NCBI RefSeq assembly: GCF_002844555.1
Contig: NZ_PJNI01000001.1
Span: forward strand, 310,001 to 374,000
Direction of reading: 5' to 3'
DNA length: 64,000 bases
Origin: Brumimicrobium salinarum
GTDB lineage: Bacteria; Bacteroidota; Bacteroidia; Flavobacteriales_D; Crocinitomicaceae
The notes below the pieces were generated by a model, which was not told the DNA's origin, did no database searches, and was given only the letters and a program-made list of their open reading frames with translations. Positions within the stretch are counted from its first letter, which is position 1; each line of letters starts with the position of its first letter. This document shows positions 32,653 through 38,497 of the stretch, one piece after another. Position numbers and translations under genes: made by a program.

Positions 32653-32834
32653 TAATTGAGTATTTTATGAATAAAAGTAGTCATCTTGCCTGTAACAATC
32701 AAGTTTAATTAATGCAGAAGCAAAACAATTATTTGTTCTTAATAAAAGCGTTTAGGAATATAAACACCTTAAAACAAACGTTCATCTGAATTTTCCCATT
32801 TGTTAAATATTTGGTTTTTAAATACAAATGGCTT

Positions 32835-32842
32835 TATATTTA
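32835..32842 (+). promoter_or_regulatory. Promoter of the lipoprotein/T9SS array
   Basis: TATATTTA is one base from TAnnTTTG, and TTTG at 32813-32816 lies 18 bases upstream as a -33 box. It precedes the broken leader gene at 32867, so the whole array may still be transcribed. Confidence 0.5.
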
Positions 32843-32866
32843 CTTTAAACTAAAAAACCAACTATT

Positions 32867-33004
32867 ATGAAACACGCATACATACCAACCGTTAAACGAT
32901 TAGCTCTCGTGCTATAAACCGCCATTTTTATGAACAACAATGCAGGCTTTTCACAAGCCAATCCTGAATGGAAAACGCATGGAAACTCAAAAAATCATAC
33001 GATT
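32867..33004 (+). pseudogene. Signal-peptide leader of a T9SS-type protein with an in-frame stop
   Basis: From ATG 32867 the frame reads a signal peptide (KHAYIPTVKRLALVL), then TAA at 32915. It continues in the same frame with TAIFMNNNAGFSQ and the motif NPEWKTHGN, which I associate with the mature start of large secreted Flavobacteriia proteins. The frame then runs straight into the lipoprotein at 33005. It looks like the 5' end of the protein whose C-terminal half lies at 33285-35060, cut off by a nonsense change and a fusion. Confidence 0.6.
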
Positions 33005-33304
33005 ATGAAAAATACAAAAATCATAATCATCCTATTACTCTTCAGTTTTGGGTTTGTAGGATGTACAAAAATAGGAAAGAATGTAACCATTAAAGGCAGA
33101 GTAATTAGCCCATTAAACAATAAACCAATGGCAGAAAAGAAAATGTACTTATATAAAAACAATTTTAAAACTATAAAGAGAACCAATACAAACGAAAATG
33201 GAGAATTTGAGTTGAGTGCAGGGCGATTTGGATCTATATGGGCTGGAGTGAGTTATGATTATAAAGAATACTACAGTCTAGGCTTTGATTATAAAGGGAA
33301 ATAA
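33005..33304 (+). pseudogene. Truncated lipoprotein with a carboxypeptidase-like domain
   Basis: From ATG 33005 it encodes 99 residues: lipoprotein signal ending GFVGC (Cys20), then a short beta-sandwich (VTIKGRVISPLNNKPMAEKK, then NENGEFELSAG) and an early stop. It resembles the start of the lipoproteins downstream only in layout, not in detail. The stop falls where the lipase-like sequence begins in another frame (33285), so this is probably a fragment joined to that gene by recombination. It could still be expressed as a small lipoprotein. Confidence 0.55.
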
Positions 33305-35060
33305 TTACCCTGATGAAGATTGGGAAAATGTTGTAATTGGCTACAGCATGGGAGGGCAAAAAGCGAGATATGCTTTGATGAAATTAGAGAAAGAACACAT
33401 GGAAAACGGTGGCATGCATCATCATACAAAGTTGTATATTCCTTTTGATTCACCACAGCATGGTGCAAATATTCCGCTTTTTACACAAGCCACATACAAG
33501 ACCTTTAAAAATACCAATATAATTGCTGCGCTTGCGAATCTTAGTTTGGTTGATCCTGCCTCGCGCGACATGGGATTGTATAGTATATATAATAGCAATG
33601 AGCTGTCTAGTTCAGGCTTGTTCTCTAAAGACTTAATTCCACATCCTGATCAAGCCGCAGTCAACTATCAGAATGAACTTAAAAATAATTTTCAACATGC
33701 TTATACCCATTCTACAGATACTCGGAAGACATTTCCTTCTTTTTCTAGGAACATTGCTGTTTCAATGGGAAGTTACAAGGAGGATTATAATGCAAAGTGG
33801 GGTTTGCATCCAGGAAAAAAATTGTTTACTCAGCATGCGCCTAGTTCATTTTATGTTCCTGTTTTAGGATTTCAACCCGGTATGGTGAATAGGAAATTGT
33901 GGGCGTCTAAATACTCTAGTACTTCTCCTCAATCTAGTTTTAGTAGAAATGATTTTTATGTTTTTCTAGGCATACCAATTTACATCAGAAAATTGTATAA
34001 TTTTCAAAAACATTACGAATGGGATATGGCACAAGGTGGTTATAAAACAATGTTCTACGATGGTTTAACAGGTGGAGCAGTAGCTATTTTGAGGTCCGGT
34101 GGAACAGTTCTGGGTAGCCAGCACTATAAAGATGAAATGAGTTTTATGCCTTTGGTTTCAGCTCTAGCAATTAACCCTGAGATTTGGAAAAATAATGACC
34201 TTTATTTTAATTTGCAGAATGAGGGGTTGATGTTTGATTCTTATTTAAATTTAGGCCTAAATATTAAATCAGACATCTTTGGTTATCCTCATTTAGCAAA
34301 TCCAAATAATCATTTTGACATCACTCCTTTCGAAGCAGTTTATGCAGATGATTTTAACTGGGATCACATCGTTATGGGTAATACCTTAGAAGACCATTTA
34401 AGTGGCAATGACGATCAATATTATTACCATAATTTGCGTGATTTTTTAAATGATGAAGTGGAGGGGTATATTGTACCGCTTCAGAATAAAGTAATCGGTC
34501 AAAATCACGTTCAAAATTCAAGTTACGAGTATAAGGCTTGGTATAAATCAAGGGATCAAGTTATTATAGGGAATAACAATACTCCAAAAACAAATCCTGG
34601 AGATTACATCATTGAACAAACGGGGAACATTACCGTCTTTGGCGGGCAGTCTGTTTTAATCAAACCTGGCTTTCACTCCAAAGCGGGTAGTACTTTTCAT
34701 GCATTTATAGATGGTCCAAGTGAATGTTATGGAGATTACGCTAAATCTGGTTCTTCTGACTCCTCTGACGATGACAATGAAAATACAACAAAAACCCATA
34801 CGGAAAAACCAAGTATTAGTCAGGATTTACAAATTAAGTTGATTCCCAACCCCAACTCGGGTAATTTTACTTTTGAAGTCAACCAAGCAAACCCTAAAGG
34901 AGCTTTATACGTTTATGGATTAGAAGGTAAACTATATTATCAGCAAGCTGTCAACCAATACCAAACAAAACTTGACCTATCACTTAAATATGGATTGTAC
35001 CTTGTCGTGTATAAAACAGGAACAGAAATAAAAACAACAAAATTAATAATTAACCAATGA
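33285..35060 (+). pseudogene. T9SS-exported lipase-like protein, N-terminally truncated
   Basis: The frame encodes 591 residues from TTG 33285 with no signal peptide. It opens at a lipase nucleophile elbow, VVIGYSMGGQ (Ser21), followed by FDSPQHGANIP and, near the end of the hydrolase part, NWDHIVMGN with a candidate catalytic His. A coat-hanger-type segment follows (VLIKPGFHSKAGSTFHAF), then a low-complexity Ser/Asp linker and a T9SS type A sorting domain (LIPNPNSGNFTFEV to the end). The strands that normally precede the elbow and the signal peptide are missing, so the protein should be neither exported nor active as it stands. Its stop overlaps the next lipoprotein start by 4 bases. Confidence 0.75.
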
Positions 35061-35722
35061 AAAATTTAATTTTTATAACTCTTCTATTCTTCTTTGGAGT
35101 TTCATGTAAAAAGGAAACATCCGTAGTTATCCAAGCCAAAGATTACAACACCGGTGATGGAACAGCCTATGCTGGTCAAGAATACGCAGTTGCAGAATCA
35201 TGGACACCTTTTCAAGAAACGAAATCTAAAATTGTAGCCACAGGGTTTTTAGATGCCAATGGCCAGGCTTCCTTTAATTTAAAAATGAAGAACAATCGCA
35301 AATATGTACTCGGTGTTAGTGAGCCTGACAATATTTGTTACGGTGGTCTTGTGCAGCATTATTTGGAACATGAAAAAAATAATTTGGTTGATTTTGAATA
35401 TTTAGCTTGCGGTTATATAAATTTACCAAGGGTAAATACCAATTGCGAAGGGCCAAACGACAAGTTTAGATATAAATATTATTATACTGATGATAAAGAT
35501 ATATACATATATACAGGATATATCGACGCAAATTATAATTGGCAAGAAAATAAGTTCTTGGAAGGTTGCATTGACTATTCAAATGCAGTATCTTACAATA
35601 GTAGACCTGTAGGAAATTACACTATTGAATGGATGGTTGAAAGAACAAGCGGCACAACAACAGGAATTGATAACTTTACAATTACTGAAAATGATTCTTT
35701 GACTTACTTAATTGAATACTAA
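35057..35722 (+). CDS. Array lipoprotein 1 (intact)
   Basis: The 221-residue lipoprotein has its lipobox at Cys17 (GVSCKKE). The N-terminal module (about 18-118) is a beta-sandwich with FLDANGQASFNLKMKNN, like a carboxypeptidase-regulatory fold. The C-terminal module (about 119-221) ends PVGNYTIEWMVERTSG and then TENDSLTYLIEY. I do not recognise a named family. There is no acidic run after the Cys, so surface export is not predicted and a periplasmic-facing position is likely. It starts by an ATGA overlap with the lipase-like gene. A role as immunity or inhibitor protein to that hydrolase is only an inference. Confidence 0.8.
   Translation: MKNLIFITLLFFFGVSCKKETSVVIQAKDYNTGDGTAYAGQEYAVAESWTPFQETKSKIVATGFLDANGQASFNLKMKNNRKYVLGVSEPDNICYGGLVQHYLEHEKNNLVDFEYLACGYINLPRVNTNCEGPNDKFRYKYYYTDDKDIYIYTGYIDANYNWQENKFLEGCIDYSNAVSYNSRPVGNYTIEWMVERTSGTTTGIDNFTITENDSLTYLIEY
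35117..35383 (+). repeat. Identical DNA segment shared with array lipoprotein 4
   Basis: This 267-bp segment reads identical, base for base by eye, to 37648-37914 in lipoprotein 4. Flanking sequence on both sides differs. Lipoprotein 2 shares most of it (to about 35325) but differs at its 3' end. This mosaic is typical of gene conversion. Confidence 0.75.
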
Positions 35723-36381
35723 ATGAAAAATTTAATTTTTATAAGTCTTCTATTCTTCTTTGGAGTTTCATGTAAAAAGGAAACATCCGTAGTTATCCAA
35801 GCCAAAGATTACAACACCGGTGATGGAACAGCCTATGCTGGTCAAGAATACGCAGTTGCAGAATCATGGACACCTTTTCAAGAAACGAAATCTAAAATTG
35901 TAGCCACAGGGTTTTTAGATGCCAATGGCCAGGCTTCCTTTAATTTAAAAATGAAGAACAATCGCAAATATGTACTCGGTGTTAGTGAACCTGATAATAT
36001 TTGTTATGGCGGTCTAGTGCAGCATTATTTGGAACATGAGAAGAGTAATACGGTTGATTTTGATTTTCTAGCTTGTGGTTATGTAGATATTAAAAGCAAT
36101 AATATTGATTGTCAAGGAGAAGAGGATGAATTTAGGTTTAGATTTTATTATTCTAGTAACCCCGATATATATATAAAGGATTTGGTACGCTTTCGGAGTG
36201 GTATAATCAAGCAATTTTTGGTTGCCAAGACTATTCAAATGCTGAACCTTTTTATAGAGATGTACCTTATGGTAGCTATACAATAGAATGGGAAGCGATC
36301 AGAACAAGTGGCACAACAACTGGTACAGAATACTTTTCAATTTTAGAAAATGACACAATCACTTATATTATAGAATACTAA
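35723..36381 (+). pseudogene. Array lipoprotein 2, frameshifted at a TA repeat
   Basis: The open frame stops at 36286 after 187 residues. The first ~118 residues match lipoproteins 1 and 4, with the lipobox at Cys17. At 36165-36175 a run (AT)5A puts the reader out of frame. Shifting frame there restores KGFGTLSEWYNQ, then VPYGSYTIEWEAIRTSG and a proper ending EYFSILENDTITYIIEY with TAA at 36379-36381, overlapping the next ATG. One TA unit fewer or two more would repair the gene. It is either a phase-variable gene in the off state or a fresh pseudogene. Confidence 0.8.
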
Positions 36382-37004
36382 TGAAACATTTAATATATAT
36401 CTTATTGATACTCTTTTTTGCAACCTCATGCAAGAAAAAGACAGCTGTCGTTATCCAAGCACAAGACATTACCCGTGACGGCGCGGCCTATGCAGGACAA
36501 GAATACGCTGTTGCGGAGTCATGGACACCTTTTCAAGAAACAAAATCTAAAATTGTAGCCACAGGATTTTTAGATGCCAATGGAAAAGCTTCGTTTAATT
36601 TAAAAATGAAGAATAATAGAAAATATGTCTTGGGAGTAAGTGAACCCGATAATATTTGCTATGGCGGTCTTGTGCAGCACTATTTAGATCATGAAAAAAA
36701 TAATAATGTAATTTTTGAATATGCAGAATGTGCTTATATAAAACTTAAAATTGATAACGTGAATTGTCAAGGACTAAGCGATAAGTTTGTTCTCTATCGA
36801 AAGAATCAAATAGGCTCAATAGACGGTGATTTCGGTTGGCAGCATGATGGATGTGTCTATTGGGAATCAAACGGGTACTCAACTGTTCCAATGGGAGAGC
36901 AGTACTACCGCTGGGAAGTTACTCGTTCAGGTAATACATCGACATATTATGACACTATTTATTTACAAGAAGGAGAACAAAGGATGTACGAGATTAACTA
37001 TTGA
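36381..37004 (+). CDS. Array lipoprotein 3 (intact, more divergent)
   Basis: The 207-residue lipoprotein has its lipobox at Cys17 (FFATSCKKK). The N-terminal module is the same protein type (AYAGQEYAVAESWTPFQETK) but the DNA differs at many silent sites from copies 1, 2 and 4. The C-terminal module is shorter and different (NVNCQGLSDKF, then VPMGEQYYRWEV, ending EGEQRMYEINY). Its start overlaps the restored stop of lipoprotein 2 by one base, so it depends on that reading frame for coupling. Confidence 0.8.
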   Translation: MKHLIYILLILFFATSCKKKTAVVIQAQDITRDGAAYAGQEYAVAESWTPFQETKSKIVATGFLDANGKASFNLKMKNNRKYVLGVSEPDNICYGGLVQHYLDHEKNNNVIFEYAECAYIKLKIDNVNCQGLSDKFVLYRKNQIGSIDGDFGWQHDGCVYWESNGYSTVPMGEQYYRWEVTRSGNTSTYYDTIYLQEGEQRMYEINY

Positions 37005-37084
37005 GAAATAAATCAACTCGATATTATAGTTTTTATGACTTCAGTAATGTTTCTTGTTTTATTGTTTCAATAGAGAAAATAAAG

Positions 37085-37588
37085 ATGAAAAGCAATAACA
37101 GAATAATGCAAGAATCCATTCGATACGCACCTATTTTTATCATTGAGCAAACGGGGAATATTACCGTCTATGGAGGGAAATCTGTTTTGATCAAACCTGG
37201 CTTTCACTCCAAAGCGGGTAGTACTTTTCATGCATTTATAGATGGTTCAAGTAACTGTTATGGAGATTATGCTAAATCTGGTTCTTCTGATTCTTCCGAC
37301 GATGACAATGAAAATACAACGAAAACACACACTGAAAAACCAAGTATAAGTAAGGTGTTACAAATCAAGTTGATTCCAAATCCCAATTCGGGTGATTTTA
37401 CTTTTGAAATTAATCAAGAAAATCCTAATGGTAAATTATATATTTATGGATTAGACGGTAAATTATACTCTGAGCAAGTAGTTAACCAAACACAAACGCG
37501 TCTTGATATATCGCTGAGAAATGGCTTGTACCTTGTCGTTTATAAAACAGTAAAAGAAATGCAAACAACAAAATTAATAATACACTAA
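37085..37588 (+). pseudogene. Orphan second copy of the T9SS sorting domain
   Basis: From about 37136 the frame repeats the end of the lipase-like gene: IEQTGNITVYGGKSVLIKPG, the Ser/Asp linker, then LIPNPNSGDFTFEI to the end. It has no hydrolase part and no signal peptide, and the ATG at 37085 has unrelated residues before the match. It ends in TAA overlapping the ATG of lipoprotein 4, the same join seen between the lipase-like gene and lipoprotein 1. The block sorting-domain plus lipoprotein is therefore duplicated. Confidence 0.75.
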
Positions 37589-38244
37589 TGAAAAATTTAA
37601 TTTTTATAAGTCTCTTATTCTTTTTTGCAGCCTCATGCAAAAAAGAGACATCCGTAGTTATCCAAGCCAAAGATTACAACACCGGTGATGGAACAGCCTA
37701 TGCTGGTCAAGAATACGCAGTTGCAGAATCATGGACACCTTTTCAAGAAACGAAATCTAAAATTGTAGCCACAGGGTTTTTAGATGCCAATGGCCAGGCT
37801 TCCTTTAATTTAAAAATGAAGAACAATCGCAAATATGTACTCGGTGTTAGTGAGCCTGACAATATTTGTTACGGTGGTCTTGTGCAGCATTATTTGGAAC
37901 ATGAAAAAAATAATATGGTTGATTTCGATTTTTTAACTTGTGGTAGCGCTATTGTGCCAACAAATAATATCAATTGTGATGGAGCAGGTGACAAAATGCA
38001 GTATAAATATTATTACACAGACAATCCTGACATATATATATATAGAGGTTTTGGAAATTATTCCGATTGGTCAGAAATTACGTTTGTTGAGGGCTGTGTT
38101 TCTTTTCCTGGTGGTTATAACCCCATACCAGTTGGCAACTACACATTTGAATGGCGAGTTTTAAGACAAAGCGGCACAACTACAGGTATCGATTACTTTA
38201 CGGTTACAGAAAACGATACAACCACGTATATATTAGATTATTAA
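37588..38244 (+). CDS. Array lipoprotein 4 (intact)
   Basis: The 218-residue lipoprotein has its lipobox at Cys17 (FAASCKKE). The N-terminal module is identical in DNA to lipoprotein 1 over 37648-37914. The C-terminal module is related to that of copy 1 (PDIYIYRGFGNYS, then PVGNYTFEWRVLRQSG and VTENDTTTYILDY) but clearly diverged. A perfect (AT)6A run at 38032-38044 lies at the same place as the repeat that breaks copy 2. It starts by overlap with the orphan sorting-domain stop, and its own stop overlaps the next remnant. Confidence 0.8.
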   Translation: MKNLIFISLLFFFAASCKKETSVVIQAKDYNTGDGTAYAGQEYAVAESWTPFQETKSKIVATGFLDANGQASFNLKMKNNRKYVLGVSEPDNICYGGLVQHYLEHEKNNMVDFDFLTCGSAIVPTNNINCDGAGDKMQYKYYYTDNPDIYIYRGFGNYSDWSEITFVEGCVSFPGGYNPIPVGNYTFEWRVLRQSGTTTGIDYFTVTENDTTTYILDY

Positions 38245-38369
38245 TGAAAAATTAAATTTTTATAACTCTTCTTTTCTTCTTTGGAGTTTCATGTAAAAAG
38301 GAAACATCCTTTGTGCATGTCTCTCTAGTTGACGGAAGAAAGGAGAAAATTAAAATCATAGTTCCATGA
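38244..38369 (+). pseudogene. Array lipoprotein 5, broken fragment
   Basis: The ATG overlaps the stop of lipoprotein 4 and the first bases match the start of copies 1 and 2, but one base change turns codon 4 (TTA) into TAA. Reading on, ITLLFFFGVSCKKETS is still recognisable, followed by about 20 unrelated residues and TGA at 38367-38369. No C-terminal module remains. Confidence 0.75.
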
Positions 38370-38497
38370 AAAAAATAGCCACATACCTTACTTTAATCCT
38401 TTTTATCCTACTCTCTTGCGCAAAAGACGGTAAGCGTATATGCGTTGGAAGTAACATTTGTAACACATCTCTCATTCTTGAATTCACTCACCTTTAA
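38366..38497 (+). CDS. Very small lipoprotein ORF at the end of the array
   Basis: The 43-codon frame has a good lipoprotein signal (KKIATYLTLILFILLSC, Cys18) and only 25 residues after the cysteine. Its ATG overlaps the stop of fragment 5 by 4 bases, keeping the coupling pattern of the array. I do not recognise the short mature part. It may be the head of a gene cut by whatever bounded the array, or a real short lipoprotein. Confidence 0.4.
   Translation: MKKIATYLTLILFILLSCAKDGKRICVGSNICNTSLILEFTHL

Follow-up and report, generated by a model that had tools for sequence, protein, structure and literature searches.

What does a truncated lipase gene do beside a row of lipoprotein genes? This question was raised by a locus of Brumimicrobium salinarum at positions 32867-38497 of the window, which is the whole stretch of 64,000 nucleotides (nt) analysed. 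We found that the locus is a decayed copy of a conserved three-gene module, UP-LIPASE-LPP; these names and those of the lipase classes are labels coined in this analysis. The module keeps its gene order and gene overlaps, and its decay, recombination and allele swapping were observed directly. It likely encodes a lipase effector of the type IX secretion system (T9SS) together with recombining immunity lipoproteins (LPPs); toxicity and target of the lipase and inhibition and localisation of the module's products are inferred. A preliminary description of the locus had compared its layout with the Tle effectors and Tli immunity lipoproteins of other secretion systems, combined here with a T9SS signal. 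Layout and evolution supported this comparison; the activity is a prediction.

The intact module consisted of UP, LIPASE (about 950 amino acids (aa), with a signal peptide, an alpha/beta hydrolase, a GCX region and a T9SS C-terminal domain (CTD)) and one to eight tandem LPPs. Gene adjacency was scored in genomes of one order, mostly of one family, and a few named contigs. The input comprised three named loci and 34 from sampled genomes, the latter each with a long lipase match; proteins of about 700-1700 aa sharing mainly the hydrolase core were left out. An LPP was the next gene on the same strand in 25 of the 26 intact lipases, own genome included, and UP lay within 27 nt upstream, likewise in 25 of 26. 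In the exception, G138, UP and the lipase were separated by a 291-aa gene that matched the CTD weakly. All 25 lipase-LPP pairs showed stop/start overlaps, of 1-4 nt in 16, 31-38 nt in eight and 16 nt in one. LPP starts were chosen by a script, and the 16-nt overlap was not that of a real start because the first LPP frame of that locus (L041) began inside the LPP domain. A second B. oceani lipase, cut by the locus edge, stood outside the 26; it was intact in L100, with an LPP after it. Intact copies were also present in the named strain B. oceani C305. The conserved pairing of lipase and lipoprotein that the preliminary description had looked for was thus found.

The pairing also extended to a Bacteroidales contig (L109, 2956-11329), where the lipase-LPP pairs had no UP match. 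The order there was lipase, LPP, lipase fragment, lipoprotein-like gene, twice an orphan CTD with an LPP, and a last orphan CTD, giving four units of a lipase or CTD with a lipoprotein. One of these LPPs scored over the cut-off for TIGR04134, a radical SAM-associated putative lipoprotein. A search of 199 related genomes found lipase matches in 54, many of which covered just the hydrolase core, and 32 genomes had lipoprotein matches. Strong LPP matches (E ≤ 1e-30) were found in 24 of 299 genomes, and 15 of the 24 also had a lipase match at E ≤ 1e-89; the scoring took the best 2 lipase and best 10 LPP candidates per genome, with locations among the matches listed. It was therefore not the case that the lipoproteins occurred without a lipase in most genomes, which had been named beforehand as a finding that would speak against the effector reading.

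The window copy comprised the following features.

32867-33004, plus strand: remnant of the UP gene's 5' end (partner predicted to be secreted and fibre-like), interrupted by an in-frame stop at 32915-32917
33005-33304, plus strand: N-terminal half of a lipoprotein from a different lineage (CTKIGKN type), in the open reading frame (ORF) 32930-33304
33285-35060, plus strand: truncated lipase, an alpha/beta hydrolase from just before the candidate nucleophile Ser to the T9SS type A CTD
35057-35722, plus strand: LPP1, intact lipoprotein of 221 aa, whose start overlaps the lipase stop by 4 nt (35057-35060)
35723-36378, plus strand: LPP2, lipoprotein with a frame change (ORF 35723-36286, the rest in another frame from 36166)
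36381-37004, plus strand: LPP3, intact lipoprotein of 207 aa, mostly inside a recently exchanged stretch
37001-37588, plus strand: orphan 3' fragment of a lipase gene, GCX and T9SS CTD, with profile matches over the cut-offs
37588-38244, plus strand: LPP4, intact lipoprotein of 218 aa
38244-38366, plus strand: LPP5 remnant, whose fourth codon is a stop
38366-38497, plus strand: signal-peptide remnant of a further lipoprotein (CAKDGK type)

These positions matched the truncated T9SS lipase, the orphan sorting domain and the lipoprotein genes and fragments of the preliminary description. Its account of overlapping or abutting junctions was also correct: besides the 4-nt overlap, LPP1 and LPP2 abut, and 1-nt TAATG overlaps were read at 36381, 37588 and 38244. 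Decay and recombination, which it had offered as possibilities, were shown directly by the truncation, the frame change, the remnants and the exchanged runs described below. LPP1, LPP3 and LPP4 remained intact. The lipase covered model positions 372-951 of 952, so that the signal peptide and about the first 40% were gone. Its GYSMGG serine codon lay at 33345-33347, Por_Secre_tail (PF18962), TIGR04183 and GCX_COOH all scored over their cut-offs, and it was 85% identical to the B. oceani lipase. The orphan fragment had neither a catalytic part nor a recognisable signal peptide. Its GCX and sorting domain were 88% identical to the end of the lipase over 300 nt, and the same 195-aa orphan followed the matching LPP in B. 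oceani (L032 11640-12227). The UP remnant showed 51% identity to residues 14-58 of the same genome's intact UP, with one internal stop. The CTKIGKN half ended at the lipase remnant, joined to it out of frame, and gave a CarboxypepD_reg match below the cut-off (E=5e-4).

The upstream UP partner, an intact copy elsewhere in the genome and allele swapping were found in addition to what had been described before. The genome held three LPP loci in total and one intact lipase. This lipase, on contig C45 (L031), was 956 aa long with a hydrophobic N-terminus, an alpha/beta hydrolase, a GCX-like region and a T9SS CTD; a 382-aa UP preceded it and three lipoproteins followed. On contig C8 (L112, 1-2051), a UP remnant ran into an LPP, followed by a 38-aa orphan CTD and two more LPPs, the last ending at the contig end. 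The start of this second decayed locus was 95% identical to 215 nt of the window (32798-33012). SprA scored over its cut-off, so that the T9SS was present. Genome-wide, 99 Por_Secre_tail matches were found at E ≤ 0.001, suggesting that the organism uses T9SS export heavily.

The arrays showed a consistent recombination pattern. The N-terminal domain was more alike than the C-terminal domain in 19 of 20 arrays (sign test 4e-5); L033, which pools two modules, was counted on this side with 0.31 versus 0.30, and L088 was the sole contrary array. In the window array, the N-domain was 90% identical and the C-domain 37%, and direct repeats of 300 nt at 97-98% were far above chance. Between arrays, one C-type could occur with unlike N-domains, for example at 73% identity in the C-domain versus 23% in the N-domain. 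The window shared an exact run of 710 nt (36486-37195) with B. oceani and one of 445 nt (36475-36919) with G001. Because polA identity to these genomes was only 84% and 79%, these runs indicated that sequence had recently been exchanged between species. Compared with B. oceani, synonymous divergence varied along the locus as a mosaic. It was lowest in LPP3 (0.06) and rose to 0.25-0.3 in the orphan CTD and the C-half of LPP1, to 0.5 in LPP4 and to about 1.1 in the N-half of LPP1 and the hydrolase part. The locus might be neutral debris of duplication, unequal crossing-over and decay, with no present function, as the truncated, frame-shifted window copy and its remnants would suggest. However, an intact module was present in the same genome and in many relatives, and the ratio of nonsynonymous to synonymous divergence (dN/dS) was 0.08-0.25 in LPP and lipase pairs, broken lipase included. 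We consider debris the least probable of the explanations.

Allele swapping was observed at fixed sites. Within one genus, several genomes carried the module at sites A, C and D, whose flanking genes were 77-100% identical. Two lipases from the same site were only 26-38% identical in nine of nine pairs (two of which used the N-part of one frame-shifted lipase), whereas lipases at different sites reached 79%. At site A, G083 (L088) had two LPPs and no lipase between shared flanks on both sides, and its lipase lay elsewhere. Site B carries the intact module of the window's own genome; G001 had three LPPs and a fragment there (L124), without a lipase, in a comparison that covered three genes (97-100%) of a single flank because the contig ended on the other side. 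In G004 and G001, C-terminal lipase remnants lay beside LPPs. Exchange of the effector, and persistence of the genes behind it after its loss, are patterns of effector-immunity loci. They are not predicted for a chaperone, nor for an enzyme that serves nutrition alone.

As for the history of the window copy, the CoADR gene at its own site occurred in three of nine genomes of the genus, with other neighbours. The N-domain type of the CTKIGKN half was that of the CTKFGK LPPs beside the other lipase group, and this half thus belonged with lipases of a different class from the remnant adjoining it. B. oceani carried three tandem modules with both lipase classes. Given this class mismatch and these tandem modules, the simplest account was a deletion across two tandem modules. 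The window copy probably arose by such a deletion, in which one lipase and the beginning of the following one were lost.

We then considered the lipase itself. The AlphaFold2 model of the B. oceani ortholog (15 sequences; mean predicted local distance difference test score (pLDDT) 72.8) gave an alpha/beta hydrolase. It aligned with feruloyl esterase (VIA, Z 15.0, root-mean-square deviation 3.5 over 222 residues) and with other esterases and monoglyceride lipases at Z 13-14. Its CTD matched the T9SS NucA CTD with a template modelling score (TM) of 0.80 by target. The preliminary description had asked for a catalytic triad in intact homologues, and candidate residues Ser390, Asp616 and His730 (L106 numbering) were invariant in 21/21 rows of alignment A1 and 15/15 of A2, which share genomes and are overlapping evidence. 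Asp424 and His712 varied across the rows. We infer that the three invariant residues form the triad; all three were kept in the window fragment. Export of this fragment is not expected because it has no signal peptide. In the intact lipases scanned, PF18962 and TIGR04183 scored over the cut-off, marking a type A sorting domain, and the Sec signal was a hydrophobic N-terminus judged by inspection. By these predictions, the intact lipase is a T9SS type A substrate and, as modelled, a serine lipase/esterase with a predicted alpha/beta-hydrolase fold. Pfam and NCBIfam gave no name to the core, with PGAP1/DUF676 at sub-cut-off scores only. A PDB sequence search gave small E-values for the sorting-domain regions only, and BlEst2 matched the hydrolase part at 0.017. 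A search for a hypervariable block showed two dips in identity, one in the linker preceding the CTD and another, for some pairs, in an N-terminal segment; neither dip was linked to the LPP C-domain.

The LPP set was drawn from 79 frames that were 180-270 aa long and covered over 150 model positions; one frame (L082 11504-12124) was lost to the lipobox pattern, leaving 78. The residues after the lipidated Cys were mostly basic (CKKE, CGKK, CTKF), and 77 of the 78 LPPs had at most one acidic residue at +2 to +6; for the CKKE lipoboxes, the preliminary description had noted the lack of an acidic run. The acidic run just after Cys that marks surface lipoproteins of Bacteroidota (LES) was thus absent. 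As reported in PMC5080379, the minimal surface-export signal of C. canimorsus has two acids, and the consensus of B. fragilis and F. johnsoniae is richer in acids. Caution is due, since the signal of the exported MucG, KKEVEEE, likewise begins with KKE but has three more acids. Without a known surface-export signal, the LPPs are predicted to face the periplasm. This bears on the idea that the arrays are diversity-generating surface lipoproteins, such as adhesins or phage-receptor variants, with the lipase a neighbour by chance. A conserved 5' half with a variable 3' half resembles cassette systems, and pilin and adhesin folds topped the Foldseek list. However, in addition to the missing export signal, the lipase was adjacent in 25 of 26 cases and full-length copies each had their own lipobox and start, which makes this idea very improbable.

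The AlphaFold2 model of LPP1 (mean pLDDT 82.8) had two beta-sandwich domains, the first of which adopted a transthyretin/CnaB fold (Z about 10, aligned over some 90 residues). Neither Pfam nor NCBIfam named the LPPs; Riean_0653 matched LPP3 below the cut-off (E=1.5e-4), a PDB sequence search with the LPPs gave no convincing match, and PADLOC returned no result for four proteins. A second lipoprotein family, with a CTITKR start, occurred within or at the end of arrays (L116 3337-4011 and 4823-5518; L037 9809-10498; L050 11029-11685). The transthyretin/CnaB fold is common among accessory domains, and the LPPs could be accessory factors of a nutritional or surface lipase, such as a periplasmic chaperone, a secretion escort or a docking partner, rather than immunity proteins. 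Strict pairing and gene overlap suit a chaperone equally, and the N-domain tracks the lipase lineage. Yet one copy would suffice for this role, and the arrays hold one to eight with strongly diverged C-domains. LPPs also persisted without a lipase where relatives have one, and they were exchanged between species. An accessory role is unlikely on this evidence.

Under the effector-immunity reading, the intact lipase would be exported by Sec into the periplasm of its producer, where it could attack the membranes from inside. The CTD would carry it across the outer membrane, and it would act as a lipid-degrading weapon against neighbouring cells. The tandem LPPs, anchored in the outer membrane and facing the periplasm, would bind and block the lipase in the producer and its kin. 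Recombination through the near-identical N-halves and sorting-domain repeats would widen and shuffle the set of C-domains in an array, and varied C-domains would protect against lipase variants of competitors. UP would be a secreted, fibre-like partner, perhaps for delivery or display. In the window, the effector would have been truncated, probably by the deletion that fused two former modules, and the immunity genes kept. A broader idea, to which we give slightly less than an even chance, is a polymorphic system of antagonism in Flavobacteriales acting through the T9SS, in which the whole cassette of UP, CTD lipase and LPP array is swapped as alleles at fixed sites and the LPP C-domain acts as an interchangeable module for specificity, which the homogenised N-domain allows to be shuffled between species. 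The payload itself may be exchangeable, judging from G049, which has the same UP and LPP frame with a different CTD protein. In this locus (L080, G049:C14, 8144-14419), UP stood before and three LPPs after a 679-aa CTD protein that matched the lipase model in the GCX/CTD part only, a possible alternative payload. Two small genes with lipoprotein-like starts lay between UP and this protein.

Several observations weighed against the effector-immunity reading. A secreted lipase may simply serve nutrition. The intact lipase of G107 (L047) lay 1.48 kb from the end of its contig, with no LPP in that interval, and neither of two partial lipases with a C-terminus (L120, L127) had an adjoining LPP. Nine of the 24 genomes with strong LPP matches had no long lipase match; one of them (G001) had a hydrolase-core match (4e-29) in a 993-aa frame, and in four of the nine the LPPs had beside them a remnant of a lipase or of UP, or else another CTD protein. 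The lipase lineage tracked the N-domain (Mantel 0.64) over the C-domain (0.46) in 19 modules, drawn from 21 lipases, as the alignment contained no LPP for L038 or L047. Even if the C-domains vary so as to recognise foreign lipases, the better tracking by the N-domain means that the binding part of the LPP may lie in either domain. The expectation that the C-domain of the first LPP would follow the lipase best was rejected (0.36 versus 0.64 for the N-domain), all correlations being significant. In addition, the dN/dS of the window lipase fragment was low, at 0.13. This meant that the truncation was recent or that the test is blind to truncation, and dN/dS was uninformative for dating it.

Finally, the module was compared with known systems. 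In S. aureus, the lipase toxin TslA of the type VII secretion system (T7SS) is described with tandem immunity lipoproteins, with 18 tilA-related genes in USA300 (PMC10730906). The module shares with this polymorphic toxin a GxSxG lipase, a lipoprotein (neutralising in TslA/TilA) and many non-identical tandem copies. TslA/TilA differs in belonging to the T7SS of Gram-positives, with the lipoprotein gene first and two small partners after the toxin. No sequence relation between the two turned up: the C-terminus here is a T9SS CTD in place of a helical targeting domain, and DUF576 was not among the Pfam matches listed for the LPPs. The Tle/Tli pairs, described as phospholipases of the type VI secretion system (T6SS) with lipoprotein immunity (Tle1/Tli1a, PMC13133936; Tle3/Tli3, PMC9860674), likewise place a lipoprotein downstream of a lipase, and Tli is reported as outer-membrane and periplasm-facing. 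P. aeruginosa Tle1 is reported with two immunity lipoprotein genes (Tli1a/Tli1b), one a proposed pseudogene (PMC13133936). The position and lipobox of the LPPs would fit a lipase-inhibiting lipoprotein of this kind. However, Tle proteins use the T6SS with VgrG and an adaptor, whereas the effector here has a signal peptide and T9SS CTD, with UP and arrays of up to eight LPPs as neighbours; the genome was not searched for a T6SS.

The TANFOR/BaCT polymorphic toxins are proposed T9SS substrates of Bacteroidota, mostly with a Sec signal and a downstream immunity gene (PMC7073777). In contrast to the module, they carry DNase and other payloads, the available text does not use the word lipoprotein, and their T9SS link is drawn from gene neighbourhoods and from genomes, while in the module the CTD is part of the effector. 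TANFOR gave no match at E ≤ 0.1 in the profile scan, whose library was not verified to hold a TANFOR model. The T7SS immunity paralogues esaG and tipC form strings of non-identical genes that recombine through homology blocks and include orphan immunity genes (PMC9484751). They are other proteins, and the homology block here is the whole N-terminal half together with the sorting-domain repeats. By analogy, the module would work like TslA/TilA or Tle/Tli and belong to neither, differing from the compared systems in predicted secretion route and, judging from the family searches, in sequence family. A T9SS lipase with lipoprotein immunity was not found in the literature searched (mostly open-access, without preprints), and this does not prove that none exists. 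A 2023 review of T9SS effectors (PMC10202324) did not contain the words antibacterial, competition or lipase in its available text, and a role of the T9SS in bacterial competition has been proposed (PMC7073777). If the effector-immunity reading is true, lipase with lipoprotein immunity would extend to a third secretion system, and the module would offer a concrete, testable pair for T9SS-based competition.

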